Shown here: positions 56,403 through 64,000 of the stretch, piece after piece
Position numbering within the stretch: position 1 is the first letter of the stretch
Layout: the number at the start of each line of letters is the position of its first letter
DNA from: Chloroflexota bacterium
GTDB lineage: Bacteria > Chloroflexota > Anaerolineae > Anaerolineales > Villigracilaceae
DNA: 64,000 bases
Direction of reading: 5' to 3'
Assembly: GCA_013388855.1 (NCBI GenBank)
Contig: JACAEM010000004.1
Location: forward strand, 1-64,000
Program-made: the position numbers and the translations under genes
Notes under the pieces: generated by a model
Database searches by the model: none
Seen by the model: the letters and a program-made list of their open reading frames with translations, nothing else
Told to the model about the DNA's origin: nothing

Positions 56403-58043
56403 TTACCTGCTTTTCTTCTTGACGGCTTTCTTGGCGGGCTTTTTCGCAGTCTTCTTCTTGACCGTTGCAGGTTTGACGCGAGTCTGGATCTGCTCATGCA
56501 TGTAGAGCTGGACATAGTAATAGCCGCCGCCATTCTTGCCTGTGGCGCCAGAGCCTTTCCAGCCGCCGAAGGGTTGGAAGCCGGGCCATGCGCCAGTCGT
56601 CGCACCCTGCGGACGGTTGGCATACGTGACGCCCGCTTCAATGTTGTCGAAGAACCACTCGGTCTCTTTCGGTGAGCCGTAGAAGCCTGCGGTCAAACCG
56701 TAGTTGACGCTGTTGGCAATCTTCATGGCTTCATCAAGGTTGCTGACTTTGCCGACGGTGGTGATGGGCAGGAACATTTCATACTGCCACAGACGATGCT
56801 CGAACGGCAGGTCGGTGACGAAGGTCGGTTCGCAGAAATAGCCTTTATCGAACATGCCGCCGGTTTTCACGTGACCGCCGGTCAGGAAGTTGCCGCCTGC
56901 GCCGTGGATCTCTTCGGTGAAGTTCTTGAAGTCGTTGTAGGAACTCTGATTGATGACGGGGCCCAGATAGGTGACGCGCTCGGTTGGGTCGCCGATGACC
57001 AGCGCTTCGGTCTTGGCTTTGAGTTTGGCGCACAGTTCATCGTAAACGGGTTCTTCCACAAGGACGCGGGAGGCGGCGGAGCATTTCTGTCCTTGCAGAC
57101 CAAACGCCGAGCGGACGATGCCGGTCGCGGCGTCTTCGAGATTGGCATTGCGCGAAACAATGGCAGGATTCTTGCCGCCGAGTTCGAGCACGATCGGGCG
57201 GACATAGTTGCGGTTGGCGAAGTCGCGGTACATCTTCATGCCCACATCGAATGAGCCGGTGAAGGTCGCGCCGTCCACTTCGGGGTTCTCGACGAGCGCC
57301 TGCCCAAGCGTAGAGCCGGGGCCGGTGACGAAGTTCACCACACCGTCCGGGAAGCCTGCGTCGCGCAGACATTCCGCATAGAGGCGCACGATCCAGGCGG
57401 TATCAGTTGCCGGCTTGATGACGACCGTATTCCCGGCCACGAGCGCCGCGCCGGTCGGTCCACCGGTCAGGGCAAAGGGGAAGTTGAACGGAGAGACCAC
57501 CAGCCACACGCCGTAGGGCTTCAAGACGGAGATATTGGTGGAATCAAATCCAATGAGCGGGTCCTTGCCCATCGGCTTGATGAAACCTTCGTTCTCCTCC
57601 ATCATCCGGGCAGACCAATACATAAGGTCGGCCGTCTCCTGCACGTCGCCAAGCGATTCCATGCGGTTTTTGCCGACCTCGAGGGCCATCGCCGCGCCGA
57701 GTTCGAAAATGCGCTTCTCGATGTTCGCCGCCGCCTTGCGGACGAGTTGCACACGCTTCTTCCAGGGCGTGCGGCTCCAAGCAGGGAACGCCCTGCGAGC
57801 CGCGGCGATTGCCATGTTGGCGTGAGACGCATCGCCTTTCTGCATGACTGCCAGCACCCAATCGGTGTTCACAGGCGACCGGTCTTCATACTTATTGTCC
57901 GCAAACACATCCTTGTTGTCGATGATCATCCCGTATTCCTTGCCGAGATTCGCCTTGAGCTTGGCGACTGCCTTGTCAAAACCTTTGTGCAGCGTCTCGG
58001 GCGGGTTGAACATCGTAGCGTACGTGAGTTTGAAATCAGCCAT
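56403..58043 (-). CDS. Aldehyde dehydrogenase, P5C-dehydrogenase-like, with Lys/Ala-rich tail
   Basis: A 546-residue NAD(P)-dependent dehydrogenase. The catalytic Cys lies in GQKCSAASR, the general-base Glu in LELGGKNPA, and the nucleotide-binding PFNFPFALTGGP near residue 180. The long N-terminal arm and overall pattern fit 1-pyrroline-5-carboxylate dehydrogenase (RocA), which oxidises glutamate semialdehyde. The last 24 residues (after QTRVKPATV: KKKTAKKPAKKAVKKKSR) form a histone-H1-like basic tail not needed for catalysis. The promoter and operator are described separately. Confidence 0.92.
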   Translation of the reverse strand: MADFKLTYATMFNPPETLHKGFDKAVAKLKANLGKEYGMIIDNKDVFADNKYEDRSPVNTDWVLAVMQKGDASHANMAIAAARRAFPAWSRTPWKKRVQLVRKAAANIEKRIFELGAAMALEVGKNRMESLGDVQETADLMYWSARMMEENEGFIKPMGKDPLIGFDSTNISVLKPYGVWLVVSPFNFPFALTGGPTGAALVAGNTVVIKPATDTAWIVRLYAECLRDAGFPDGVVNFVTGPGSTLGQALVENPEVDGATFTGSFDVGMKMYRDFANRNYVRPIVLELGGKNPAIVSRNANLEDAATGIVRSAFGLQGQKCSAASRVLVEEPVYDELCAKLKAKTEALVIGDPTERVTYLGPVINQSSYNDFKNFTEEIHGAGGNFLTGGHVKTGGMFDKGYFCEPTFVTDLPFEHRLWQYEMFLPITTVGKVSNLDEAMKIANSVNYGLTAGFYGSPKETEWFFDNIEAGVTYANRPQGATTGAWPGFQPFGGWKGSGATGKNGGGYYYVQLYMHEQIQTRVKPATVKKKTAKKPAKKAVKKKSR

Positions 58044-58230: not shown

Positions 58231-58773
58231 ATGAAAATGAGAACCCGCCTCCTTCCAAGCCTGATTCTGTTCGCCATTTTCCTGGCTTCATGCGCCCCTG
58301 CAGCAGCCACCGAGACCGCCGCGCCCCTTGTCCCCCCGCCGACAGCCACACTACCGCCACCTGCCCCCACTCAGCCTCCGTCGGATGTAACCGAGGCGTC
58401 TGCCGAAACCGTTCCGCCGACGCCGTTTCCCATTGCCACATCGCGCGGACCCGACCTCCACGCCACCGACCCGACCACGGTCAATCTGGCATCCGGGCAA
58501 CTTCAATTCGTGGAATTCTTCCGCTTCACCTGAGGCACCTGCCGCTCCATGGCGCCCATGGTTCATGGGCTCGAGGCAAAATATTTCGGCAAAATCCAAT
58601 TCACTTATCTGGATGCTGATGACCCGCTCACCCGCGATTTCCAGCGTGCGCTCGGGTTTTATTACCAGCCTGAGGTCTACCTGCTGGATGGAAATGGGAA
58701 TGTTTTGAAGAAATGGGTGGGCTACACGTTACAGGAGGAATTTGAAGAAGAATTTGCGAAATACGTGCAATGA
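58231..58773 (+). CDS. Thioredoxin-fold lipoprotein with in-frame TGA, probable selenoprotein
   Basis: The frame from ATG 58231 encodes a signal peptide with lipobox LASC (about Cys21), a Pro/Thr linker to about residue 80, and then a thioredoxin strand QFVEFFRFT. It then meets TGA at 58531-58533 and continues without any frame change as GTCRSMAPMVHGLEAKYFGK and a normal thioredoxin C-terminal half ending EEFAKYVQ at TGA 58771-58773. The TGA sits exactly at the first Cys of CxxC, giving Sec-G-T-C. Read through, the protein is 180 residues. It would be an extracellular thiol-disulfide enzyme. A nonsense mutation is the alternative; no selenocysteine machinery lies in the window. Confidence 0.8.
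58554..58570 (+). promoter_or_regulatory. SECIS-like hairpin downstream of in-frame TGA
   Basis: GCCCATG (58554-58560), loop GTT, CATGGGC (58564-58570) form a perfect 7-base-pair hairpin inside the coding region. The loop starts 27 bases after the TGA and opens with G. Bacterial SECIS elements are small hairpins in this distance range with a G at the start of a short apical loop. Confidence 0.65.
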
Positions 58774-58774
58774 T

Positions 58775-58812
58775 CGACGGCGGTGTACGAAAGTACACCG
58801 CCGTCGTTTTTG
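58775..58812 (+). terminator. Terminator after the thioredoxin-fold gene
   Basis: A perfect 14-base stem CGACGGCGGTGTAC / GTACACCGCCGTCG with a GAAA tetraloop, followed by TTTTT. It starts 2 bases after the second TGA, which supports 58773 as the true end of the gene. Confidence 0.93.
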
Positions 58813-62433: not shown

Positions 62434-63258
62434 TTAGTGATGTCCGGGGAAGATCTCTCCTGCTTCGATGGGGATTTTCAAGTGGTTTTCCTGCGGCGGG
62501 AAAGTGCAGGTGGCATAATCGGTAAAGGCACAGGGTGGACTGTATGCCTTGTTGAAGTCCACGAAGACTTTCCCATTTTCGTGCGCATCGGTGTAATGAT
62601 AACGCCCGGATGGATAGGTCGGTTTGCCGTTGGTCAAGTCCATGAACTGGATGAAAAGGCGATGATCGGGCAGTTCCTCGACCATCAACTCGTGTTTTTG
62701 TCCGTTCAATTCAAAAGTGACAAAGCCTTGCATGGGCTCGTCAAGGATGGCGCCAAGAATGTCGGGCATTTTGACGATTTTTGGGGTGTCATAGCGGGTG
62801 TAGGTGGCAGGGACGCGAAACTCCTCTTTAACGGGATACCACTGCCTGGGTGGAAAGAGGCGGCGCTCTTCGCGCAGATTATCCCACAGGCGAATGCCCA
62901 CGCCTCTCGAACGGCGCACAACCACCATCCGCATATTGTCGAAGGTGATGAAGCTGGGTACATCCTCCTGATCTGCGTCGAGCAGCGCGGATTTGGTCTC
63001 CACGCCGTTGACCTCAATGGGCAGGTCGGAATCAACATTCAAAGTGACGTTGTTGCCGTCAAATTCGAGGACGCCGATTTTTGCAGGGGCGCGGGCAGGT
63101 AACAGGATGTCGCTATCGGGATCGGACCCAACGGTATTGACGCCTCTACGAAGCCAGAACAAGCCTGCCAAGGCAAGCCAACCGTTCTCGCGGCGCAGGT
63201 TGTTCTCCACCTCCTGCCGCCATTTTTCGATGCCGTTGATGTATTCTTCGTTTGCCAT
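62434..63258 (-). CDS. DUF1684 protein, copy 1
   Basis: A 274-residue protein matching DUF1684: WRQEVENNLRRENGWLALAGLFWL at the start, RLWDNLREERR in the middle, and the hallmark FNKAYSPPCAFTDYATCTFPP near the C-terminus. There is no signal peptide. The biochemical role of the family is unknown. Its ATG follows TATAAT by 6 bases without a ribosome site. A paralogue lies just upstream on the same strand. Confidence 0.88.
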   Translation of the reverse strand: MANEEYINGIEKWRQEVENNLRRENGWLALAGLFWLRRGVNTVGSDPDSDILLPARAPAKIGVLEFDGNNVTLNVDSDLPIEVNGVETKSALLDADQEDVPSFITFDNMRMVVVRRSRGVGIRLWDNLREERRLFPPRQWYPVKEEFRVPATYTRYDTPKIVKMPDILGAILDEPMQGFVTFELNGQKHELMVEELPDHRLFIQFMDLTNGKPTYPSGRYHYTDAHENGKVFVDFNKAYSPPCAFTDYATCTFPPQENHLKIPIEAGEIFPGHH

Positions 63259-63310: not shown

Positions 63311-64000
63311 TTACCCCCGATAGATTTCTCCCGCCTCCACGCGGAATGGCAATGTGTTTTGCGGCGGCGCAAAAAGACAGGTGGCGTACGGCGTGAAAGC
63401 GCACGGCGGGCTGTAGGCGTAATTAAAATCCACGGATAATTTTCCATCTTCGCCGATCGGCTCAGTGTAGTAATACCGGCTGGGCGGATAGGTCTCTTTA
63501 TTGCTAGTCTCGTCGCGGAACTTGATGAAGAGTTTACGATCTTTGGTCAGGCTTCCATCGAGTTTGTAGGTCTTGCCTTCGAACTTGAAAGCAACGTATC
63601 CATCGATGCGGTCTTCGACCATACCGCCGAACATGTCCGGGAATTCGTTGAATCTGGGTTCGGGATATGGCGTATAACGAGCCGCCATGCGAAATTTTTT
63701 GTTAATGGGAAACCACTTGAGCGGAGGCTGGGAATGCCGCTCCTCCCGCTGATTGTCCCAGACGCGAACGGCGAAACGTCCTGCATGTTCGTGCAGGACC
63801 ATGCGGATATTGTTCCACGTAATAAAACTGGGGTTCGCGTCCTTGCTGGACCGGAGGGCGGTCTTCTGCACCAATCTGCCATTGACCTCCACCCGGACTC
63901 CCTCTGCCACCTGGAAACTGGCGCTCCTGTTCTTCCACTCGATGATGCCCAGAAACGTTGGCGCCCGTTCCGGCAGGAGGATCTCGCACATCGGGTTCGA
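63311..64000 (-). CDS. DUF1684 protein, copy 2 (partial, N-terminus off window)
   Basis: The C-terminal 229 residues of a second DUF1684 protein. SNPMCEILLPERAP at the window edge aligns with SDPDSDILLPARAP of copy 1, so about 45 N-terminal residues lie beyond 64000. RVWDNQREER and FNYAYSPPCAFTPYATCLFAPP are conserved. The gene is a tandem paralogue of copy 1. Its start and promoter are not visible. Confidence 0.86.
   Translation of the reverse strand, partial: SNPMCEILLPERAPTFLGIIEWKNRSASFQVAEGVRVEVNGRLVQKTALRSSKDANPSFITWNNIRMVLHEHAGRFAVRVWDNQREERHSQPPLKWFPINKKFRMAARYTPYPEPRFNEFPDMFGGMVEDRIDGYVAFKFEGKTYKLDGSLTKDRKLFIKFRDETSNKETYPPSRYYYTEPIGEDGKLSVDFNYAYSPPCAFTPYATCLFAPPQNTLPFRVEAGEIYRG

Follow-up and report, generated by a model that had tools for sequence, protein, structure and literature searches.

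A gene on the plus strand of the analyzed window, i.e., the whole stretch of 64,000 nucleotides taken from an Anaerolineae genome (4.03 Mb, 46 contigs, 99% complete), is predicted to encode a lipid-anchored, extracytoplasmic thioredoxin with selenocysteine (Sec, U) as its attacking residue, and not to be a broken gene. We assign a probability of approximately 93% to this interpretation, which is favored because the genome carries the machinery for Sec insertion, the in-frame TGA is conserved, the hairpin that follows it shows covariation, the stem is associated with Sec forms across the class, and selection is seen on both sides of the TGA.

By direct reading, the read-through frame extends from an ATG at 58231 to a TGA at 58771-58773 and contains one internal TGA at 58531-58533, which takes the first position of a UxxC motif (QFVEFFRFT-U-GTC-RSMAPMVHGLE) and would place Sec at residue 101 of a 180-residue protein. 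The sequence-only reading had reported a single TGA at the first Cys of a CxxC motif with the frame open on either side, and this is confirmed by our reading and by a match of the read-through protein to PF00085 (Pfam Thioredoxin; E 6.3e-7, 29.8 bits against a gathering cut-off of 23.5). The frame begins with a putative lipoprotein-type signal peptide (58231-58293) that ends, behind a hydrophobic stretch recognized by eye, on the Cys (residue 21) of a lipobox-like LASC; a Cys was also seen by eye at the corresponding N-terminal place in the orthologues that were read. A Pro/Thr/Ala-rich linker that is predicted to be unfolded (58294-58440, with low pLDDT up to approximately residue 67) is followed by the thioredoxin domain (58441-58770, residues 71-180), which is delineated by both profile and predicted fold. 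The TGA at 58771-58773 is regarded as the real stop, the 63 distinct orthologues ending in TAA (36), TAG (14) or TGA (13). The strong terminator previously placed right after this second stop was also recovered: the scan located an intrinsic terminator at 58775-58811, consisting of a 14-pair stem (58775-58806) and TTTTT and starting two bases past the final stop, with 0.9 looser sites expected by chance in such a region.

When searched alone, the portion after the TGA returned no Pfam match above cut-off, and no NCBIfam model was matched above its cut-off by the window protein, which scored 31.8 bits against the equivalog cut-off of 96.8 for TIGR01068. Judged by its sequence, the window protein is thioredoxin-like and not a TrxA orthologue. 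The best NCBIfam E-value among the other 29 family members, 8.6e-11, was likewise to the TIGR01068 thioredoxin model. AlphaFold2, applied to the Cys-read sequence with 29 rows, modeled residues 71-180 confidently as a thioredoxin; the confidence was low over most of the linker. The closest solved structures (Foldseek was also run) are thioredoxins with Z of 15-16, the top matches having an rmsd of 1.7-2.0 over 98-103 residues at 20-26% identity. The protein is absent from plasmid records at E 1e-5.

The search for selenocysteine genes that had been proposed as a check found selA, selB, selC and selD in the genome, each above its curated cut-off. SelA (4.5e-136), SelB (1.9e-102, full length) and SelD (4.8e-104) were all matched, while selC corresponds to tRNA-Sec with anticodon UCA (tca). 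As a separate observation, selD (L020:1501-2433) has an in-frame TGA of its own in the motif CAGUASK, because of which SelD itself is likely to represent a second Sec gene of this genome.

Within the genus, an orthologue was identified in 14 of 18 genomes, each with one TGA, and at the family level in 96 of 152 genomes (E 3.1e-34 or better), i.e., in 95 rows that each have one TGA and in G003, where an N gap cuts the gene and the TGA lies in the first half. None of the 96 family orthologues is a Cys form. Where the active site was read directly, TGA was found at the U of UxxC in 93 of 93 loci, many of which are the same genomes from two collections (92 typed, 64 distinct) and one of which, L123, was untyped at first and also has TGA at the site. 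The hairpin, codon and selection analyses were based on 63 distinct sequences, L039 having been dropped owing to an N gap. The downstream frame damage that the earlier reading had named as contrary evidence was not seen in these relatives: 80 residues follow the U in 57 of the 63, and 79 or 81 in the other six. The two sides of the TGA are under similar selection, with median pairwise dN/dS values in the genus of 0.107 for the 30 codons before it and 0.101 for the 71 codons after it, and of 0.099 and 0.141, respectively, across all 63 sequences.

SelA was matched in 144 of the family's 152 genomes, with one match below cut-off. The protein was found in 92 of the 96 genomes that carry the gene and in 52 of the 56 that do not, and the gene is therefore often missing while the machinery stays. 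The four gene-carrying family genomes that returned no SelA match, and four of the class's 40 Sec-carrying genomes for which the same is true, are all drafts (53-95% complete). In a sample of 301 genomes from the phylum, this class included, 12 had a match at E 1e-12, all of which belong to the same class. Six remoter TGA-bearing loci of the same family (L040-L043, L176 and L179), with sites reading UMEC, URDC or UKEC, are likely to constitute a second group of thioredoxin-like selenoproteins.

The putative SECIS element occupies 58554-58570, where seven pairs (58554-58560 with 58564-58570) enclose the loop GUU (58561-58563). The 7-bp hairpin and GTT loop thus stand as originally described, although the distance of 27 bases given for the hairpin is true of its loop, the stem starting 20 bases from the TGA. 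Bacterial SECIS elements are characterized in the available portions of PMC1088965 and PMC1794560 as stem-loops just past the UGA with a small apical loop containing G, features that recur here in the 7-pair stem, the G-led loop and the position just past the UGA. The 63 distinct sequences pair in 99.5% of cells, and their loop reads GUU, GUC, GUG or GUA. Three pairs, amounting to eight cells, have changes on both sides, which was reached by none of 500 shuffles, and these two-sided changes vanish when the partner columns are slid by 1 to 3; the covariation score is 0.080 in register versus 0.077 with the 3' partners slid by +2. The measure of 'further pair types' was ordinary (290 of 500 shuffles). 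In L063 and L064 a Pro is replaced by Ser, and in L066 a Gly by Arg, with the pair kept in each case, as expected if the RNA is under selection. Codon choice within the hairpin is close to fixed, with GCG in 61 of 63, CCC in 54 of 55 and GGG in 56 of 62 sequences, compared to usages of 0.21, 0.44 and 0.17 elsewhere in the gene. Codons before the TGA (58522-58530), outside the hairpin, were also observed to be near-fixed, namely CGC at -3 (61 of 62) and ACC at -1 (58 of 62).

For the window sequence by itself, folding energy showed no excess over shuffles in the four stretches assessed (z of -0.01, -0.50, -0.79 and -0.61), and when the 21 codons that follow were recoded synonymously 20,000 times, 1.1% of the recoded sequences contained such a hairpin, defined by a stem of 7 pairs or more, a G as the first or second base of the loop and a suitable distance. 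The selenoprotein had originally been proposed in part by an argument from chance; the comparative data support that proposal, but chance alone is a weak argument for the hairpin, as the energy z values and the 1.1% indicate. The consensus fold also contains a further stem of four pairs, formed by columns 11-14 and 20-23, which is invariant and is uninformative either way.

Beyond the family, a match to the domain profile at E 1e-6 was obtained for 172 of 396 genomes of the class. Eighty class loci were hand-picked, with 'none' rows taken on purpose for Cys forms, which renders the Sec:Cys ratio meaningless, and 73 of these were used, L175-L181 being omitted as members of the window's own family. 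Homologues with Sec and with Cys at the first position both exist, as the proposed search of homologues was to establish, and the hairpin goes with the Sec forms. Specifically, of 44 Sec and 29 Cys loci (n=73), the stem keeps five or more of its six pairs in 42 and 4, respectively (Fisher p 3e-13), and SelA matches were obtained for 36 of the 40 genomes that have a Sec form versus 11 of the 25 that have Cys forms only (p 1e-4), p-values that overstate the case since the class rows are related. The first typing covered 67 of the 73 loci, comprising 42 Sec rows, 41 of them with the stem, and 25 Cys rows, four of them with the stem; six were typed later (two Sec, four Cys), before which the SelA split was 36 of 39 versus 9 of 21. 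The SelA background in the class is 325 of 396 genomes. Two Sec rows, L171 and L214, are missing the stem in this register.

In a quick tree of 100 columns, in which 42 of 82 inner branches are open, the ordinary TrxA branch holds 12 of the 25 first-typed Cys rows. Cys rows outside it have the stem in 4 of 13 cases and SelA in 2 of 11 genomes, a split that was made after viewing the tree. The tree requires 11 changes between U and C. One Cys row, L167 (CGTC, 5 of 6 pairs, no SelA match), has as its sister, with a support of 99, the congeneric L212 (UGTC, with a SelA match), and likely represents a recent switch from Sec to Cys that left a SECIS remnant. Comparable switches with SECIS remnants are shown for FdhA and a HesB-like protein in the accessible part of PMC1794560. 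A U-x-x-U site was identified in eight loci (L158, L166, L169, L171, L172, L174, L177 and L221), one of which, L177 (UIPU), comes from the window's own genus. Six of these group together (84), L158 has a UxxC row as its sister (99), and L166 is placed among other rows; because these two fall apart from the six-locus group, UxxU probably arose more than once. We lean towards a scenario in which surface-anchored thioredoxins occur throughout the Anaerolineae with Sec as the usual residue, the switch to Cys with a decaying SECIS having taken place chiefly where the machinery was lost, and a second Sec having been gained repeatedly to generate a di-selenol UxxU site.

Under the standard code, the gene would be divided into a 100-residue stub and a fragment. 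Other explanations for the TGA were weighed. In a single genome, an in-frame TGA would look no different if a common Cys thioredoxin had become a pseudogene by a nonsense mutation or if the TGA were a sequencing error; TGA at the site in all 93 loci, one TGA in each of the 96 family orthologues, the genus dN/dS of approximately 0.1 on both sides and the retained length after the TGA speak against it, and this explanation, refuted by the conservation of the TGA, is considered extremely improbable. An equally negligible probability is given to a reassigned code in which TGA specifies Trp or another residue without selenium. The frame would indeed be open if TGA encoded a residue, but three of ten window frames checked end in TGA, the selenoprotein gene included, relatives have Cys and not Trp at the site, and the genome has a complete Sec machinery; code reassignment was rejected on these grounds. 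Only slightly greater weight, and still very little, is given to a split into two products, i.e., a short secreted lipoprotein that the TGA terminates and another protein translated from the ATG at 58549, which lies five codons past the TGA and opens a 74-residue frame. Residues on both sides, those of the motif FF-x-x-T-U-x-x-C included, belong to a single thioredoxin domain and are conserved jointly, the ATG is unkept in class relatives (ATC, CTC or TTT in L149, L155 and L145), and covariation is found across the hairpin; the split gene was rejected on the joint conservation of the domain, the lost start codon and this covariation.

The most substantial competitor, though an unlikely one, accepts the same selenoprotein and gives it another job, as a surface selenium-dependent peroxidase or another enzyme that is not a disulfide reductase. 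Sec confers peroxide chemistry in other families, which counts towards this possibility, as does the neighborhood of the gene, in which no thiol-redox gene is conserved. The neighbor that is conserved, in 46 of 62 loci, encodes a divergent aldehyde dehydrogenase (PF00171; window 56403-58034) with no evident redox link, and the downstream ECF transporter genes are common to only 15 of 62. A peroxidase role is opposed by the UxxC spacing, profile and fold, which are those of thioredoxin, and by Cys relatives with CxxC. Two DsbD_TM proteins are encoded in the genome, one by a gene adjoining glutaredoxin-like and LD-transpeptidase-like genes and the other by a gene adjoining a Cys-containing (WCSTC) lipoprotein thioredoxin, named by eye; neither a DsbD_TM gene nor CcdA lies beside the selenoprotein gene. 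Elsewhere in the window, two adjoining minus-strand genes with similar sequences were observed at 62434-63258, which matches DUF1684, and at 63311-63991, which was judged by eye only.

For the preferred disulfide-reducing selenoprotein, we infer Sec incorporation, lipidation, the direction of the redox reaction, its substrate and its electron donor or partners as follows. Translation would start at 58231, and the hairpin 20-37 bases past the UGA would hold SelB and Sec-tRNA-Sec such that Sec is inserted and termination avoided, whereas at the final UGA, which is followed by no such hairpin, translation would stop. The protein would be exported and subsequently attached to lipid. Sec, the first residue of UxxC, would attack a disulfide of a protein that is secreted or exposed at the surface, and the Cys would resolve the intermediate, the Sec-Gly-Thr-Cys site thereby reducing or exchanging disulfides of surface proteins. 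Its re-reduction across the membrane would be provided by a CcdA/DsbD-type protein, of which the genome encodes two, the DsbD_TM proteins mentioned above.

This prediction would add a conserved and probably extracytoplasmic selenoprotein to a group of bacteria known mostly from metagenomes. The sister pairs of Sec and Cys forms, and of UxxC and UxxU forms, offer a natural test of the benefit of selenium in a thioredoxin and of the way in which SECIS elements decay once Sec has been lost.

As regards known systems, lipoprotein thioredoxins of the TlpA, ResA and CcdA-linked kinds are extracytoplasmic, anchored and equipped with a CxxC-type redox site, and are counterparts that work like the predicted protein. 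The window family differs from ResA and TlpA in giving weak matches for a few members only (11 of 30, best 0.013, and 1 of 30, 0.19, respectively), and from CcdA-linked thioredoxins in that the window gene has no adjoining CcdA. UxxC thioredoxins (PF00085, one Sec) are listed among experimentally verified selenoprotein families in Table 1 of PMC13188914, and several UxxC Trx-like families appear in the accessible parts of PMC2398784 and PMC1088965; the available portion of PMC1794560 counts three selenoproteins for Chloroflexi. With verified Sec thioredoxins the window protein shares the thioredoxin domain, Sec as the first residue of UxxC and a SECIS-like hairpin just past the UGA, while it is distinguished by its putative lipoprotein signal, its long linker and the presence of Sec in every family orthologue found. 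It is 20-26% identical to the nearest thioredoxin structures, and the listed Sec thioredoxins are set apart from it by description only. SaoT (NF040730), described in the same portion of PMC13188914 as a thioredoxin-like selenoprotein with UxxC, resembles the window family in both respects, yet was matched at chance level only (12 of 30 members, best E 0.061). UxxC and UxxU both occur in Prx-like thiol:disulfide oxidoreductases of PF00578, according to the sections available of PMC13188914 and PMC9312934 and, for the Prx-like 2 family, PMC2398784. One-Sec and two-Sec sites are thus combined in one family there as here, but those proteins are peroxiredoxin-like, whereas the window clade matches thioredoxin profiles and has UxxU in relatives and not in the window gene. 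Within its accessible part, PMC13188914 lists UxxU for Prx-like, metal-binding and FmdB proteins and not for thioredoxin. A limited literature collection, searched by title and start of abstract, yielded no published treatment of this Anaerolineae clade. UxxC thioredoxins are an established kind of selenoprotein, and what seems to be new is the Anaerolineae surface clade with its UxxU relatives.
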